Origin: Chamaesiphon minutus PCC 6605
GTDB lineage: Bacteria; Cyanobacteriota; Cyanobacteriia; Cyanobacteriales; Chamaesiphonaceae
Direction: 5' to 3'
NCBI RefSeq assembly: GCF_000317145.1
Contig: NC_019697.1
Coordinates: forward strand, 5,220,886 to 5,284,885
Length of the DNA stretch: 64,000 nt
Shown in pieces: positions 33,060-40,511 of this stretch. Within the stretch, counting starts at the first letter, position 1. The number at the start of each line of letters is the position of its first letter. Made by a program: the position numbers and the translations under genes. The notes under the pieces were generated by a model. That model made no database searches. It was given only the letters and a program-made list of their open reading frames with translations, and was not told the origin of the DNA.

Positions 33060-36000
33060 CTAGAACTTACCAGCTAACGCATCCACACATCGATCGCAAA
33101 TTACTGGATGTTCGCTATTTTGACCGACTGTAGGTGAATAGTTCCAGCAGCGATCGCACTTGGTACCATCAGCATTTACTACACCAATTTTACCAGTTTC
33201 AACAGTTGTTTGATGTTGCAAACCTTCTAGTCGGCTAGCATCATCGATTAACTCGACTTGCGATGCGAGGAAAAAGTATCGCAATTCGTCAATGCCATTA
33301 GATGCATTTTGGGGTGCGGCTGGTTTCGTCGGGACATGTACGGGTGTATTTGGGATTAATTCGCCTGAGTCTTCGATCGCCGATACCGTCCGTTCGGTGT
33401 AATATTGTGCGCCGATGATGTAATCCTTGTAGGCGATCGCGCGATCGAATGTTTGTTTGCGTTTCTCTTTGGTTAACAAATTACGCACTACGAATAAGCC
33501 GCTCATCACCATCCCGACGCCTTGGAGAGTCGTTTCTACAAATGGAACCCGATTAACGATATCGAGCAATCCGATCGCGATATACAATCCAAATGCTCCG
33601 GTTAATACCAGGAGAATATTGCCAATCAATCGCCAACCTTTACTATATGCTTCGATCGCTGTGGCAATGCTACCAGTTACGACGTTACCCCCGCTGTGCA
33701 ATACTTCTTGAATGAGTGGCAGCGGCGAGGCATTAACTAATTTATCGATCGTCGGTGTCCGAGAAGTAGTCGCACTAACTACCACTCCCCCCCTCATACT
33801 ACCCTCCTGGGAAGGGCTGGGGGTGGGTGTCGTGGGTTCCGTGGGTTCCGAATGCGCCGAAAATGCTCTCAACTTCGCTTTGAGTTCCGGATCGCTCACT
33901 TGCAATAATACCTTTGCCTCTAGGCTAGAACCGATCGCTTTATCGGTGCGCGCCTGTTCCATCACCTTGTTGACATCTGTCCGCAGGTCGCGAATTTTGT
34001 CCCAATTGAGGGCTAAATCCGGCTGTAACCATTGCGGATCGAGTTTGACCCAGCCAGACTCAAATACAGATTTATAAGGGGTTTGGTAGGGCAAATACTG
34101 CCAGATATCTTCTGCCATGTGACAGAGGACGGGGGCAATCGCGCGGGTGAGATTTTCGAGGATAATTGCCAAGACTGTCTGACAACTGCGACGCCGGAAG
34201 GATGTCGGCGCGCTGATGTAGAGGCGATCTTTGGCGATATCTAGATAGAAGTTGGACAGATCGACGATGCAGAAATTCTGAACTAGTTGGAAGAATTTAA
34301 AGAATTGATATCGATCGAATGCTTCGGTGATTTCGGCTAATACCACACTCATCCGGTGCAGCATATATCGATCGAGTTCGGCTAATTCAGCATAAGGCAC
34401 GGCATCTTTTGCTGGATCGAAGTCGTGGATATTTCCGAGCAGGAATCGCGCTGTATTCCGAATTTTGCGGGAAGCATCAGATAATTGTTTGAGGATATTG
34501 GGGCCGATTCTGACTTCAGTCGCATAATCGACCGATGATACCCACAAGCGGACGAGATCGGCTCCATAAGCCGGATCTTTCTGCTGGTTTTTGCCGCCAT
34601 CCATCACCACCATTGGGTCGATGATATTGCCCAATGATTTACTCATTTTCTCGCCTTTCTCATCCAATACGAAGCCATGGGTGAGGACGGTTTTAAATGG
34701 TGCGATGCCATTATTAGCGACGCTAGTGAGCAAACTCGATTGGAACCAACCCCGATGTTGATCGGAGCCTTCGAGATACATATCGACTGGATAGATTAAA
34801 TTATCTCGTTGGTTGGCAACCGCCGCCCAGGAGGAGCCAGAATCGAACCAGACATCCATGGTGTCGGTACCTTTGATATAGGTACGGCCATTATGACGAT
34901 GAGATTCGGGTAATAGTTCTTCAACAGACATGGAGTACCACGCATCGGAACCATGTTCGCGGAAGATGTTTTGGACGTGGTTAATCGATGCTTCTGTTAG
35001 TAATGGTTCGTTGGTTTCAGCATCATAAAAAACGGGAATTGGTACGCCCCAATTGCGCTGACGAGAGATGCACCAATCCGATCGTTCGGCGACCATGGGC
35101 GTGATCCGATTCTCACCTTGAGCGGGAATCCATTCGACTTCGGAAATCGCTTTTAGTGCTGCTTCTTTAAACCCTTTAACCGATGCAAACCACTGTTCGG
35201 TAGCACGGAAAATTGTCGGCTTTTTGGTACGCCAATCGTAGGGATATTTATGTGCGTATGATTCCTCTTTAATTAGCGATCGAGCTTCGATTAAGGCTTG
35301 AATGACTAATTCATTACCATCGCCTAAAACATTCGCACCTTTTAATAGTTCTCCGGCTTCGTCGGTAAAATTACCATCGCCATCGACAGGTGCCAGAATT
35401 GACAAACCGTACTTCTGACCGACGATATAATCTTCTTGACCGTGCCCTGGGGCGGTATGTACCAACCCAGTCCCGGATTCTGTCGTGATATAGTCGCCGC
35501 CGATAATCACCGGACTGTGGCGATCGTAGAGCGGATGTTTGTAAGTAGTATGTTCTAAATCTGCACCTTTGATTTCGGCTTTGGTAGTTAGATGCAGGTT
35601 AAATTTAGCAGCTAATCCTTCGACCATATCGGCAGCCACGATCGCATATTTGCAGCCATCGTATTTATTATCTTCTGGTGCGGCAACTTCGACGATCGCG
35701 TAGTTGAGATCGGGATTTACCGCCACGGCTAAATTCGCCGGAATCGTCCAAGGGGTAGTCGTCCAGATTGCGACTGCTAAATCTTCCTGAAATGGTTCTA
35801 AAATTGCCTTAGCAGCATCGGCAACCTGCGTGACCTTAAATGCAGCGAAGATACTCCGCGAGACGTGTCCTTCGGGATATTCTAGCTCTGCTTCTGCCAG
35901 AGCCGTCTTGGAACTGGGACTCCAATGCACGGGTTTCAAGCCGCGATAGATATAGCCTTCGAGCACCATTTTTCCGAACACGCCAACTTGTGCCGCTTCA

Positions 36001-36491
36001 TATTCGGGTTGCAGGGTGAGATAGGGCTTATCCCATTCCCCCCAGACACCCAGCCGCTTGAAGCCGATCTTTTGTTCTTCTACCGTTTTGAGCGCGAATG
36101 CTGCCGCTTTCTGCCGTAGTTCCAGCGGTGTCAAACTCAGACGTTCCGCTGGCTTCATATCTTGGATGACTTTAAGCTCGATCGGTAGTCCGTGACAATC
36201 CCATCCCGGCACGTAGCGGACTTTGCGCCCTTTGAGCAGTTGGTAACGGTTGATGATATCTTTGAGCGTTTTATTCAGCGCGTGACCCATATGCAGCGAG
36301 CCATTAGCGTATGGAGGGCCATCGTGCAGCACAAAAATCTCGCCAGGGTTGGACTGTGACAGTCGTTCAAAAATTTGCTCGTCTGCCCAGAATTTTTGCA
36401 GTTCGGGTTCGCGAATGACAGCGTTAGCGCGCATGTCAAACTTAGTCTGGGGTAGGTTTACCGTATTTTTGTAACTTCCTGGTGCTGTCAC
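33060..36491 (-). CDS. ileS: Isoleucyl-tRNA synthetase with inserted CAAD-type membrane domain
   Basis: A class I synthetase of 1143 residues, about 180 longer than most IleRS. The catalytic part has GSLHMGHALNKT (HIGH), WDCHGLPIE, the editing-domain region and KMSKSLGN (KMSKS). The C-terminal zinc finger CDRC...CDRC (about residues 1112-1132) is intact. Between the anticodon-binding helices and this finger, about residues 878-1050 are an insertion: a Pro/Ser/Thr-rich linker, an amphipathic segment, two membrane helices (about 957-977 and 983-1003, separated by NRVPF) and a basic tail. This fits the CAAD domain that anchors several cyanobacterial synthetases to thylakoid membranes. The linker PTPSPSQEGSMRGG is encoded by a dispersed-repeat-like DNA segment. 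Confidence 0.93.
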   Translation of the reverse strand: MTAPGSYKNTVNLPQTKFDMRANAVIREPELQKFWADEQIFERLSQSNPGEIFVLHDGPPYANGSLHMGHALNKTLKDIINRYQLLKGRKVRYVPGWDCHGLPIELKVIQDMKPAERLSLTPLELRQKAAAFALKTVEEQKIGFKRLGVWGEWDKPYLTLQPEYEAAQVGVFGKMVLEGYIYRGLKPVHWSPSSKTALAEAELEYPEGHVSRSIFAAFKVTQVADAAKAILEPFQEDLAVAIWTTTPWTIPANLAVAVNPDLNYAIVEVAAPEDNKYDGCKYAIVAADMVEGLAAKFNLHLTTKAEIKGADLEHTTYKHPLYDRHSPVIIGGDYITTESGTGLVHTAPGHGQEDYIVGQKYGLSILAPVDGDGNFTDEAGELLKGANVLGDGNELVIQALIEARSLIKEESYAHKYPYDWRTKKPTIFRATEQWFASVKGFKEAALKAISEVEWIPAQGENRITPMVAERSDWCISRQRNWGVPIPVFYDAETNEPLLTEASINHVQNIFREHGSDAWYSMSVEELLPESHRHNGRTYIKGTDTMDVWFDSGSSWAAVANQRDNLIYPVDMYLEGSDQHRGWFQSSLLTSVANNGIAPFKTVLTHGFVLDEKGEKMSKSLGNIIDPMVVMDGGKNQQKDPAYGADLVRLWVSSVDYATEVRIGPNILKQLSDASRKIRNTARFLLGNIHDFDPAKDAVPYAELAELDRYMLHRMSVVLAEITEAFDRYQFFKFFQLVQNFCIVDLSNFYLDIAKDRLYISAPTSFRRRSCQTVLAIILENLTRAIAPVLCHMAEDIWQYLPYQTPYKSVFESGWVKLDPQWLQPDLALNWDKIRDLRTDVNKVMEQARTDKAIGSSLEAKVLLQVSDPELKAKLRAFSAHSEPTEPTTPTPSPSQEGSMRGGVVVSATTSRTPTIDKLVNASPLPLIQEVLHSGGNVVTGSIATAIEAYSKGWRLIGNILLVLTGAFGLYIAIGLLDIVNRVPFVETTLQGVGMVMSGLFVVRNLLTKEKRKQTFDRAIAYKDYIIGAQYYTERTVSAIEDSGELIPNTPVHVPTKPAAPQNASNGIDELRYFFLASQVELIDDASRLEGLQHQTTVETGKIGVVNADGTKCDRCWNYSPTVGQNSEHPVICDRCVDALAGKF

Positions 36492-36569: not shown

Positions 36570-38195
36570 TTAAAGGACACTATCTGCTTGCGACCAGGTA
36601 AACCGAAAAGTCGTCCCTCGACCGAGTTCGGATTCAATTGCGATCTCGCCACCATGACTGTGGACGAGCTTTTTGACAATCGATAATCCGATCCCGGTAT
36701 TTTCCTGTCGGTCTCGCTCGACTAAAGTTTGGAAAATATCAAACACCCGATCGAAATCGGCTGCGGGAATGCCTGGGCCATCATCTGTCACCGCAAATTT
36801 CCACAAATCTGCTTGAAGCTGGGCGGTAATCTGAATGTGTCCATCAGTGCGGTCGTGATGTTTGTAAGCATTACCGATTAAATTAGCAAAGACTTGGCTT
36901 AGAAGTAAGCGATTAGTGACGATCGGCGGTAGATTTGTGGGTAAATCGATCCTAAAACTGTCCGAAATGTTCAGAGAATCGATAATTTCTGCTAATAAAT
37001 CCTCAATCGCAAAAGTTGTCAAACTTACCTCAGTCTGACCGACACGGGCGTAATCGAGCAAACCATCGATTAAAGATGTCATCCGGACTACCCGCGATCG
37101 CATTAAGTTTAGGTAATTTTGGGTTTCAGCACCAATTTTTTCAGCCAGACTCTCTTCAATCCATTCCGAGAGATTGGCAATTCCGCGCAGGGGTGCTTTG
37201 AGATCGTGAGAAACAATATAAGCAAACTGGTCTAATTCTTGATTGCGTCGTTCGAGTAGGGCAGTGGTTTTGGCAAGTTTGAGCGTCTGCTCTTGGAGAG
37301 AAAGTTCGGTCTGCTTGCGCTCTGTAACCTCACAGATGATGCCAAGCATTCGATCGGCCCGATCGTTGTTGTAGTAAGATCTACCAAATGCGTCGAGCCA
37401 GTGGATACTACCATCTGGCCAAATTACTCTGTACTGTGTTACAAAATCACTGTGAGTAGTAACTGCCAGTTCGAGTGCTGCTTTGACTGCGGGCAAATCT
37501 TCAGGATGAACTCGTCGTTCCCAATCTGCATATGAGTACTCCGCCGCGCTGAATGTATAGCCCAGCATCTTCGCATGATAGTCATTCCAGACCAATTTTT
37601 TGGTGACTAAGTTCCAGTCAAAAACACCCATTCGCGCAGCATCGGTCGCTAGTGTCATCCGTTCGGCCAAATTTCTAGTCAAAAGCATCGCGGCTTCTAG
37701 TTCTAGCGTCCGTGCAGCCACCCGTGCTTCTAGTTCGTCATTAACTTGTTGAAGTTGGGCTTCAACTAACTCACGAGCGCGGATTTGCTGCTCTAGTGCC
37801 TGATTTGTCGCTGCTAACTGCGCTGGACTCGGCAGCAGCAAAGCTTGTGGAATCAATTTCACCAATACTAGGGCAGTATAAGCAGAAACGATACCAGTAG
37901 CAGCTTTCACAGTGCCGGAGAGCCAGTATACTGGATGCCACAGCGTCCAGACCTCTAACAGGTGAGTAGTCCCGCACAGAATAATAAATGCCCCAAATAG
38001 ATTAAAAATCCAATTAAAGGGTAGATCTTCGCGTTTTTCAACGAAATGAAATAAAGTCAATGGAATCGAAAAATAGGCAATCGCGGTCGTTAGATCCGAT
38101 ATCAGATGTAATCCTACTAATTCGGTTTTCCACAGGTAACAATGTCCGTGGGGAATAAAAAATTCTGACATCAATAGGTGTGTGAAATATTCCAT
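36570..38195 (-). CDS. Ethylene-receptor-type hybrid-membrane sensor histidine kinase
   Basis: A 541-residue kinase. The N-terminal three-helix membrane domain (about residues 28-118) matches the ethylene-binding domain of plant ETR1 and cyanobacterial SynEtr1: D34, Y41, P45, I71, C74 and H78 have the same spacing as ETR1 D25, Y32, P36, I62, C65 and H69, the last Cys/His pair binding Cu(I). A coiled coil (about 125-175), a PAS fold with PAC tail (about 176-296), and a HisKA/HATPase module follow: H330 in VSHDLKAPL, N438 and N442 in FANLIGNAYKH, DDGPGIP (471-477) and GIGLS (501-505). There is no receiver domain and no adjacent response regulator. An IS4 element is inserted 138 bp upstream of the start. 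Confidence 0.9.
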   Translation of the reverse strand: MEYFTHLLMSEFFIPHGHCYLWKTELVGLHLISDLTTAIAYFSIPLTLFHFVEKREDLPFNWIFNLFGAFIILCGTTHLLEVWTLWHPVYWLSGTVKAATGIVSAYTALVLVKLIPQALLLPSPAQLAATNQALEQQIRARELVEAQLQQVNDELEARVAARTLELEAAMLLTRNLAERMTLATDAARMGVFDWNLVTKKLVWNDYHAKMLGYTFSAAEYSYADWERRVHPEDLPAVKAALELAVTTHSDFVTQYRVIWPDGSIHWLDAFGRSYYNNDRADRMLGIICEVTERKQTELSLQEQTLKLAKTTALLERRNQELDQFAYIVSHDLKAPLRGIANLSEWIEESLAEKIGAETQNYLNLMRSRVVRMTSLIDGLLDYARVGQTEVSLTTFAIEDLLAEIIDSLNISDSFRIDLPTNLPPIVTNRLLLSQVFANLIGNAYKHHDRTDGHIQITAQLQADLWKFAVTDDGPGIPAADFDRVFDIFQTLVERDRQENTGIGLSIVKKLVHSHGGEIAIESELGRGTTFRFTWSQADSVL

Positions 38196-38333
38196 TATCG
38201 ATTTAGATATATGTATCTCCGCTGATTTACTTAGATGAAAAATCTACTTCAGCACGACGAAACTATCGAAAGTGACTGCGAACGCTCCAATATTAAAACA
38301 TTTAATGTTAGGGCAAAACATTATACTTAAAAT

Positions 38334-39819
38334 GCATTCGTGACAAGTTAAGAAAATCAGAGATTTGTCAAAAGGGTAATAAAAAGATGCCAAACTGTTT
38401 CTAGTCAAGAGTTTGAGGGAATAGAGGCCTGATGACCAGCCGCCGAAGAAGTAACCGCGACCACGCCAAAAAGAACCACCAACCAGGTGTGGAAGATGAG
38501 ATCATCGCCGCTCAAGTAGAGGCTTTATTGACACCAGCAATTTTCAATCAAAGTCATTACTACCGACAATTAGGGCTGAGAAATCGGCTGTTAAATTTAC
38601 CCTTGATGATGGCAGCAGTGCTGACGCTACTGTGGCGGAATGTGCCAGGAGTCAGAGAACTAAGCCGAATGTTAGGGCGAGAAGGATTTTTGTGGTGTGA
38701 GCCAACACAAGTAAGTCAACAGGCGATTGCACAAAGATTTCTGACCTTTCCATCTGAGTTATTTGAGAGAGTGTTTAAGGAATTACTGCCAGAATTTAGA
38801 GTGAAGTGGCACCAGAGAAAACAGCGATTGTTGCCACAAAGCATTGAATTTGCTCAAGCAAAATTTGAGCGGATTTGGGCATGTGATGGCTCCACATTGG
38901 AAGCGATATTCAAGAAATTAGATAGCTTATCTGATGTGCCAATCGGACAACTAGCGGGAAAAATGGGAGTAGTCATAGATTTGGTGACGAGATTGCCGAT
39001 TGAAATCTGGTTTAGAGAAAATCCCAAAGCTTCAGATGTTAATTTTGAGAAAGATATCCTGAATTTAGTAACATCGGGCACTTTATTGCTCTTGGATCGA
39101 GGCTTCTATCATTTCCAATTTTGGCAAGAATTAATTAACAGAGATATTCATTTTATTACTCGATTAAAAAAAGGTGCATCGCTACAGATAGAGCGAGTAT
39201 TTAGCAATAGTTATAGTATCCGTGACCGAATAGTGCGGATGGGGTCTGGCACCAAAAAGACTCCATATATAACTGTAAGATTAGTCGAAATTAAAGTGGG
39301 TAAAGTCTGGTATTCTTATCTAACTAGTGTACTCGACCCATTGAATCTTCCTCCCTATGTAGTCGCCGATTTGTACGGAAGACGGTGGCGAATTGAAGAG
39401 GCTTTTAATACTGTTAAACGATTGCTCGGGTTGAGTTATTTATGGACTGGTTCAGTTAATGGAATTAAATTACAGATGTGGGGGACTTGGCTGTTTTATG
39501 CAGTTCTAGTCGATTTAGGTGATGCTGTAGCTGATGAATTATCTCTCCCATTCGACCGCATTTCTTTAGAGATGATTTATCGAGGTCTTTATCACTTTCA
39601 TGTAGCTCATCATAAAGGTTTAGCTGCCAATCCAGTCACCTATTTTGCTGCCCCAGAGAATCAAGATTTAGGTATTGTTAAAACTGTTCGTAAACCTAAT
39701 GTTAAGTTAATTATTGCACCTTTTCCTGATTCTATGAGTCGAACAGACAATTTTTTCTTCGACTCATCGCCTCAAGCCCGCTTGACAAGTGCGATCGCTT
39801 CTTAACTTGTCACTAATGC
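38334..39819 (+). mobile_element. Complete IS4-family insertion sequence
   Basis: A 1486-bp element with 21-bp terminal inverted repeats (38334-38354 and 39799-39819, one mismatch; inner 15 bp GTGACAAGTTAAGAA identical), flanked by the 7-bp direct repeat TTAAAAT (38327-38333 and 39820-39826), a target-site duplication. One transposase gene fills the inside. Intact ends, open frame and duplicated target indicate a young, possibly active copy. Confidence 0.9.
38432..39805 (+). CDS. IS4-family DDE transposase
   Basis: A 457-residue transposase. The DDE triad can be placed in IWACDGSTLEAI (first Asp, about residue 151), GTLLLLDRGFYHF (second Asp) and YGRRWRIEEAFNTVKRLLGL, the Y-R-E-K-type signature of IS4 enzymes with the catalytic Glu. 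The N-terminus is basic. The gene uses codons with less C-ending bias and fewer CGATCG words than its surroundings, as expected for imported DNA. Its stop codon lies 14 bp inside the right end of the element. Start ATG at 38432 follows GAGGCCTG. Confidence 0.92.
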   Translation: MTSRRRSNRDHAKKNHQPGVEDEIIAAQVEALLTPAIFNQSHYYRQLGLRNRLLNLPLMMAAVLTLLWRNVPGVRELSRMLGREGFLWCEPTQVSQQAIAQRFLTFPSELFERVFKELLPEFRVKWHQRKQRLLPQSIEFAQAKFERIWACDGSTLEAIFKKLDSLSDVPIGQLAGKMGVVIDLVTRLPIEIWFRENPKASDVNFEKDILNLVTSGTLLLLDRGFYHFQFWQELINRDIHFITRLKKGASLQIERVFSNSYSIRDRIVRMGSGTKKTPYITVRLVEIKVGKVWYSYLTSVLDPLNLPPYVVADLYGRRWRIEEAFNTVKRLLGLSYLWTGSVNGIKLQMWGTWLFYAVLVDLGDAVADELSLPFDRISLEMIYRGLYHFHVAHHKGLAANPVTYFAAPENQDLGIVKTVRKPNVKLIIAPFPDSMSRTDNFFFDSSPQARLTSAIAS

Positions 39820-39826
39820 TTAAAAT

Positions 39827-40511
39827 GTATCGAGCATGTCAGCCAAAAATTTCTAAATTAAGTCATTACTATCGAGCAAACTTAATTTGCTGACTTGTAG
39901 CTCAATTGTCCGCCCACTAAGTAAATACACCACTCATCATTCCACAGACGCCATTTGAGACCGATCGCCTAACTCTTGCCAGAAGCTAGTTTAGTTTCAG
40001 CAAAATCATCAATTGAGGCTTAAATGCTGTCTCAGTCAAGTTTCTAGACAAAACCTCAACTAAGCTCTATACATTATGGGATACTAATAATTATGTTCTC
40101 TCTATCTTTTGGCTGATTGCACCAGATGCTTCGATCGGCTGAGGGTGCAAGCTGTGAGTACAGTGAAATGTTTCTGCACTCTGTCGATCGAAATTAAGTA
40201 CCATTCGAGACGATCGATGGTGCCAGGACTTGCTATCAGTTATTTACAGATGTCCTAGCCAATATTGTATTCCAATCTCGATCGTATCCCAATTGATGGA
40301 ATCTTGGTGGAATTAACTAACCCAGAAGAGAGCGATCGCCAACCAATATATAAACTGTCACAAACTGCGCTTTTTACCGATCGAGATCGTGGTCGAATAT
40401 ATTTAAGCTGCCCTGACATTTCGATCGCATACTAGATTTCTGGAAAAGGGGGAGCGGTGAGGCAGTAAGTAAATTTGTCGGACAACCCACAATCTACAAT
40501 TTCGCGGACAT
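39827..40511. other. 685-bp intergenic stretch right of the IS
   Basis: No supported gene. The only recognisable content is a partial copy (40443-40476) of the dispersed G-rich repeat seen at 32806 and 47712. A minus-strand frame at 40403-40786 overlaps the DUF2157 gene and looks like a shadow. Confidence 0.45.

Follow-up and report, generated by a model that had tools for sequence, protein, structure and literature searches.

Ethylene-receptor-type kinase in the Chamaesiphon minutus genome

The window (the whole 64,000-nucleotide stretch of the Chamaesiphon minutus PCC 6605 genome that was analysed) carries a gene whose product is, in all probability, a bacterial ethylene-receptor-type histidine kinase in which a Cu(I)/ethylene site in the membrane domain would signal to the kinase. 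The open reading frame starts with ATG, is intact, and lies at G000:C1:5257455-5259080 in genome coordinates. Its features are as follows.

36570..38195, minus strand: putative ethylene-receptor-type orphan histidine kinase, open reading frame of 541 aa (ORF and Pfam)
37839..38120, minus strand: ETR1_N membrane domain, residues 26-119, holding D34, Y41, I44, P45, I71, C74 and H78 (Pfam)
38130..38153, minus strand: N-terminal P-H-G-H-C-Y-L-W stretch, residues 15-22 (alignments)
37335..37595, minus strand: PAS_3 domain, residues 201-287 (Pfam)
36591..37235, minus strand: HisKA and HATPase_c kinase core, residues 321-535, with H-box H330 (Pfam and motifs)

The ETR1_N profile (PF25487) matched residues 26-119 with 140.8 bits (E 1.8e-41) against a curated cut-off of 27. 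The match is far beyond chance because none of 14 control genomes was matched by this profile at E ≤ 0.001. The earlier note had read a full PAS-HisKA-HATPase module behind the membrane domain, and Pfam indeed places PAS_3, HisKA (321-386) and HATPase_c (429-535) there. Features of an orthodox two-component histidine kinase, namely the HisKA phospho-acceptor histidine and the N and G motifs of the ATPase, are present, with the kinase motifs SHDLKAP (329), NLIGNAY (438), DDGPGIP (471) and GIGLSI (501). Within the 541 residues Pfam gave no match to a receiver (PF00072), and none to a GAF or phytochrome domain at E ≤ 0.1.

The search of 60 genomes gave ETR1_N proteins above the cut-off in 43; the window's genome is one of them, and there the product of 36570-38195 is the only one. 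The family is thus known and widespread, and the window receptor is not an unusual case. Three of eight other Chamaesiphon genomes, several of them incomplete assemblies, also have ETR1_N (G002, G003 and a contig-end fragment in G008). The ortholog from Chamaesiphon polymorphus CCALA 037 (L035 in genome G003) is 93% identical over residues 1-134 and 89% over residues 1-538. Compared against the domains of the window protein it has a like architecture, and its upstream neighbours agree as judged by sequence starts; its contig stops 27 bp past the gene. A literature search combining Chamaesiphon and ethylene returned nothing on receptors in titles or the opening lines of abstracts. The window genome adds a cyanobacterium with a single putative ethylene-receptor gene as a candidate for ethylene-response testing.

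Residues of the putative ethylene- and copper-binding site

We take the seven ethylene-binding positions of ETR1 to be D25, Y32, I35, P36, I62, C65 and H69. The earlier note held that D34, Y41, P45, I71, C74 and H78 reproduce the ETR1 spacing; this was correct, each lying nine positions beyond the ETR1 residue named. It overlooked the seventh position, I44, which is also present and presumably corresponds to I35 in ETR1 numbering. That seven residues are needed for ethylene binding is stated in the available text of PMC6682694 and PMC11819568, and the available portion of PMC12643061 names Asp25, Cys65 and His69 of ETR1 and places Cu(I) in the site.

In alignment A1, comprising the window protein and 80 loci, all seven residues occur in 80 of 81 rows, with P45 replaced by T in the remaining one. 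These loci are the best 80 of 172 retrieved with patterns derived from the window protein, and the set therefore leans towards it. A second set took the best ETR1_N match per genome from the 29 top-scoring of the 42 other ETR1_N genomes (L006-L034; at least two share contigs with A1). Here 26 of 29 loci retain all seven residues and the other three deviate at P45 alone. Among 20 weaker, hand-picked ETR1_N matches, the weakest of which align loosely, a single one has the complete set, and three of the 19 incomplete matches (L187, L189, L190) deviate at P45 alone. Since 19 of these 20 miss at least one residue, the domain can persist while the site decays. Judged by its residues, the site has not decayed in the window protein, which is likely to bind ethylene. 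As a separate observation, the position of the copper-ligand cysteine is occupied by Y, G or W in L188, L175, L172, L176, L180, L178 and L177, the weakest of which align loosely; such domains are possibly receptors for something else.

The closest studied protein in build is AzoEtr1 of Azospirillum brasilense, whose N-terminal 130 residues bound ethylene on expression in Pichia, as reported in the available text of PMC11819568. We located it on a plasmid record of strain Sp7 (L169:2962-4539, 525 aa). It is 29% identical to the window protein over 555 columns, from residue 13 through the kinase, and 50.5% identical over residues 13-111. Both proteins are of similar length, are organized as ETR1_N, PAS and histidine kinase, and keep the seven residues, and the accessible description of AzoEtr1 mentions no fused receiver. 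Ethylene sensing by the window protein can soundly be inferred from homology, since AzoEtr1 combines a like architecture and all seven residues with measured ethylene binding. The two differ in that AzoEtr1 has V instead of H18, and in that the end of its gene is overlapped by a downstream ORF, in the place of the response regulator described in the available part of PMC11819568, whereas no such gene adjoins the window receptor.

Preceding the first helix, P15, H16, G17, H18, C19, Y20 and W22 are invariant in all 81 rows of A1. We considered HGHC as a second metal site essential for ethylene binding and rejected this, because AzoEtr1 reads HGVC and H18 varies in six of the 29 best matches from other genomes (L009, L017, L024, L030, L031, L032). 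The single N-terminal cysteine, C19, is likewise invariant (81/81 rows). According to the accessible text of PMC6682694, plants have two N-terminal cysteines for disulfide dimerization and the cyanobacterial proteins compared there have one.

These residues also bear on whether the domain might instead sense copper or another small ligand, with ethylene binding incidental, which we regard as unlikely. The ETR1 site does hold Cu(I) (PMC12643061, available portion), and the HGHC invariant across the 81 A1 rows could be a metal entry point before helix 1. However, all seven residues are retained, including those that are not named as copper ligands, and AzoEtr1, with the same residue set, binds ethylene (PMC11819568, available text) while having V for H18.

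Predicted structure and proposed mechanism

AlphaFold2, given the 81-row alignment, predicts helices at residues 24-54, 61-86 and 90-120 (mean pLDDT 79.6, pTM 0.65), in keeping with the three transmembrane helices of ETR1-type receptors. Predicted helix 1 carries D34, Y41, I44 and P45, and predicted helix 2 carries I71, C74 and H78; C74 and H78, being spaced i, i+4, would lie on one helix face. A sequence search of the PDB for the membrane domain gave no chain at E ≤ 1, and a fold search gave no match at E ≤ 0.001; PDB matches of the window protein are confined to its kinase core and PAS domain.

By analogy with studied receptors, we infer copper binding, ethylene binding and dimerization for the window receptor. 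In a dimer, D34, C74 and H78 of the three-helix membrane domain would hold Cu(I), and ethylene would bind this Cu(I). The helices would then transmit a change, by way of linker and PAS domain, into the kinase core, with autophosphorylation at H330, and the kinase would phosphorylate a regulator in trans.

The PAS domain raises a further reading, in which the membrane domain does bind Cu(I) and ethylene, but the dominant input, be it light, redox or a small molecule, is sensed by the PAS domain, and ethylene only tunes the response. Its position between membrane domain and kinase is suited to such a role, and SynEtr1 is described as a receptor of both ethylene and light in the accessible text of PMC6682694 and PMC11819568. 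The lack of any GAF or phytochrome match at the threshold given above argues against it, and we consider it possible while giving it clearly less weight than ethylene-to-kinase signaling.

Absence of a fused or adjacent receiver

The earlier note had proposed that the kinase has neither an attached nor an adjacent receiver domain. This is borne out by Pfam, with neither the fused receiver of a hybrid kinase nor the neighbouring one of a two-gene system being found. The window genome contains 124 receiver matches (PF00072), the nearest of which, at 5198047-5198409, is ~59 kb away; on the other side the distance is 315 kb.

In nine of 80 ETR1_N-bearing relatives the receiver is fused, and in 26 a receiver-bearing ORF lies within 300 bp on either side, so that 34 of 80 have one or the other. 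Neither a fused nor an adjacent receiver occurs in the 22 ETR1_N relatives that rank highest in kinase-core similarity. Where at least 300 bp are visible on both flanks, the counts are 0 of 21 for the similar-core group and 31 of 51 for the rest; this comparison is descriptive only, because the 170-bit cut defining a similar core was set once the ranking was seen and because the relatives are not independent. Three of the 21 have receivers farther off: in L105 a receiver-bearing kinase lies 901 bp away on the opposite strand, and in L061 and L088 a receiver ORF lies farther upstream. Since the nearest kinases likewise go without an adjacent receiver, the orphan state is no oddity of the window genome.

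A receiver-less cyanobacterial candidate, GeiEtr1 of Geitlerinema PCC 7105, is already in print and, by its description in the available text of PMC6682694, has all seven residues; it carries a GAF domain between membrane domain and kinase where the window receptor carries PAS. SynEtr1 (Slr1212) of Synechocystis PCC 6803, again compared by description in the accessible parts of PMC6682694, resembles the window receptor in joining a cyanobacterial N-terminal ethylene-binding domain to a histidine kinase and in being without a second gene of this kind in the genome. It differs in having a cyanobacteriochrome and in signaling to the response regulator slr1213, whereas the window receptor has PAS_3 only, without the cyanobacteriochrome GAF of the SynEtr1 type and without a nearby regulator. 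The available portions of PMC6682694, PMC11819568 and PMC12643061 do not give a signal route for receiver-less bacterial ethylene receptors.

A candidate output partner

The earlier note had left the output partner open. This stands insofar as no partner gene is adjacent, and it is modified in that the field may be narrowed to one class of regulators. We tentatively propose as partner a single-domain regulator of the class that we take to be called Rcp1-type; the best candidate is G000:C1:577173-577607, and the second is its paired paralogue at 2839869-2840300. We hold this to be the leading suggestion, if one that is still rather more likely wrong than right. It reduces the partner question to a short list of one unpaired and one paired regulator.

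Six Rcp1-type regulators in the window genome score above 55 bits to G000:C1:577173-577607, that one counted. For five of them a kinase match is found no more than 50 bp away, and the sole exception is G000:C1:577173-577607 itself, whose nearest HATPase_c match is ~13 kb away. The C. polymorphus ortholog of the candidate (G003) is 85% identical and retains the neighbour gene; its 3.4-kb locus showed no kinase of this class. The closest in-genome paralogue of the candidate (68%) adjoins a CHASE3-PAS kinase, the core of which is 43% identical to that of the window kinase.

Seven kinases encoded next to members of this regulator family (L198, L199, L193, L161, L162, L154, L168) resemble the window core with 192-264 bits, and three more (L163-L165) with 153-164 bits; in the nearest group, the other six orphan ETR1_N kinases score 245-270 bits. 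We built a kinase-core tree from 27 hand-chosen rows; it is midpoint-rooted, and its outer rows were flagged for long branches. It contains a 19-row group (support 100/99) made up of the window kinase, seven orphan ETR1_N kinases (L035, L058, L063, L066, L082, L104, L105), ten regulator-adjoining kinases and L155a. Outside this group fall five ETR1_N kinases with their own adjacent regulators, as well as three PAS-less Nostocales orphan receptors, taken from the 15 PAS-less receptors among the 22 orphans.

Conservation of the candidate regulator is uneven. G003 is the only one of the other three ETR1_N-bearing Chamaesiphon genomes to have a close copy; the best match in G002 is 57% identical with its own kinase alongside, and that in G008 (77% complete, receptor fragment) is 36% identical. 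In eight other genomes the candidate has relatives with identities of 52-64%, the best of them 57-64%, and three of the ten loci concerned have a kinase of this class alongside. In addition, the closest kinase core in the window genome (61%; G000:C1:1298239-1298967, L155a) is part of a receiver-bearing protein, and a different partner is therefore possible.

More generally, orphan receptors with this core might signal only in trans, through Rcp1-type regulators that serve other kinases with the same core as well; this is a speculative proposal, a little less probable than the specific pairing above. If true, ethylene input would be merged at a shared regulator with other signals, such as those of CHASE3 kinases, and such wiring would show how receiver-less bacterial ethylene receptors pass on their signal.

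Insertion sequence and gene neighbourhood

An insertion sequence (IS) lies on the start-codon side of the receptor gene.

38335..39818, plus strand: IS element, 1484 bp, with DDE_Tnp_1 transposase at 38432-39805

The element lies upstream of the receptor start codon at a distance of 139 bp, and the 9-bp target duplication on either side of it, CTTAAAATG (38326-38334 and 39819-39827), is perfect. At least 28 near-identical copies, the window copy included, are present in the genome (40 of 79 candidates scored), and C. polymorphus L035 lacks an IS in the interval from the receptor to the DUF2157-like gene. The insertion upstream of the receptor is recent. The gene could accordingly be in the course of being lost or mis-expressed, as the number of near-identical copies, the intact duplication and the missing element in C. 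polymorphus would allow. Against this, the open reading frame is intact and retains the 89% identity to C. polymorphus over residues 1-538, and loss or mis-expression appears improbable to us.

Other copies of the element cut or abut two receiver genes: G000:C1:1407878-1409704 extends around the copy at 1407970-1409456, and 4573059-4573367 lies next to the copy at 4571599-4573082. Stretches of 39-40 bp that match the IS end with 90% identity, the rest being missing, occur in at least ten places, including G000:C1:3801873-3801912, and are possibly relics or miniature elements. The DUF2157-like gene beside the receptor has 483 aa in the window and is a 167-aa ORF in C. polymorphus (L035:4701-5201), the short form being either a broken gene or an assembly error.

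On the other side, 78 bp separate the end of the receptor gene from ileS, which follows in the same orientation. A meaningful receptor-ileS operon was considered and rejected, as the Chamaesiphon fragment in G008 has no ileS after the receptor. A large gene lies upstream of the receptor in six of 22 relatives; three were inspected and none is ileS, their beginnings presumably being those of UvrA. Conserved neighbours were likewise rejected as a clue to function, none standing out among the seven nearest kinases; shared neighbours occur among the PAS-less relatives and resemble general synteny. The IleRS itself (33060-36491, 1143 aa) carries a CAAD membrane domain at residues 948-1027 (50.9 bits), a feature of cyanobacterial aminoacyl-tRNA synthetases going by the Pfam name.

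ETR1_N-like domains in phages

A search for viral relatives of the close family gave seven pattern-matched stretches, none of which was confirmed. A more distant ETR1_N-like domain was seen in Maribacter phage Molly_1, in a 289-aa protein annotated as hypothetical (Molly1_65, QQO97550.1; L171:1432-2301) that scores 60.9 bits against the cut-off of 27. The protein has no kinase domain, retains the Cys and His in the motif FCGIGH, and is encoded just upstream of an N-acetylmuramoyl-L-alanine amidase gene. Near-identical copies occur in eight phage records, all of Maribacter phages (six Molly, two Colly), the Pfam result being that of the Molly_1 copy, and one further identical copy is present in IMG/VR.
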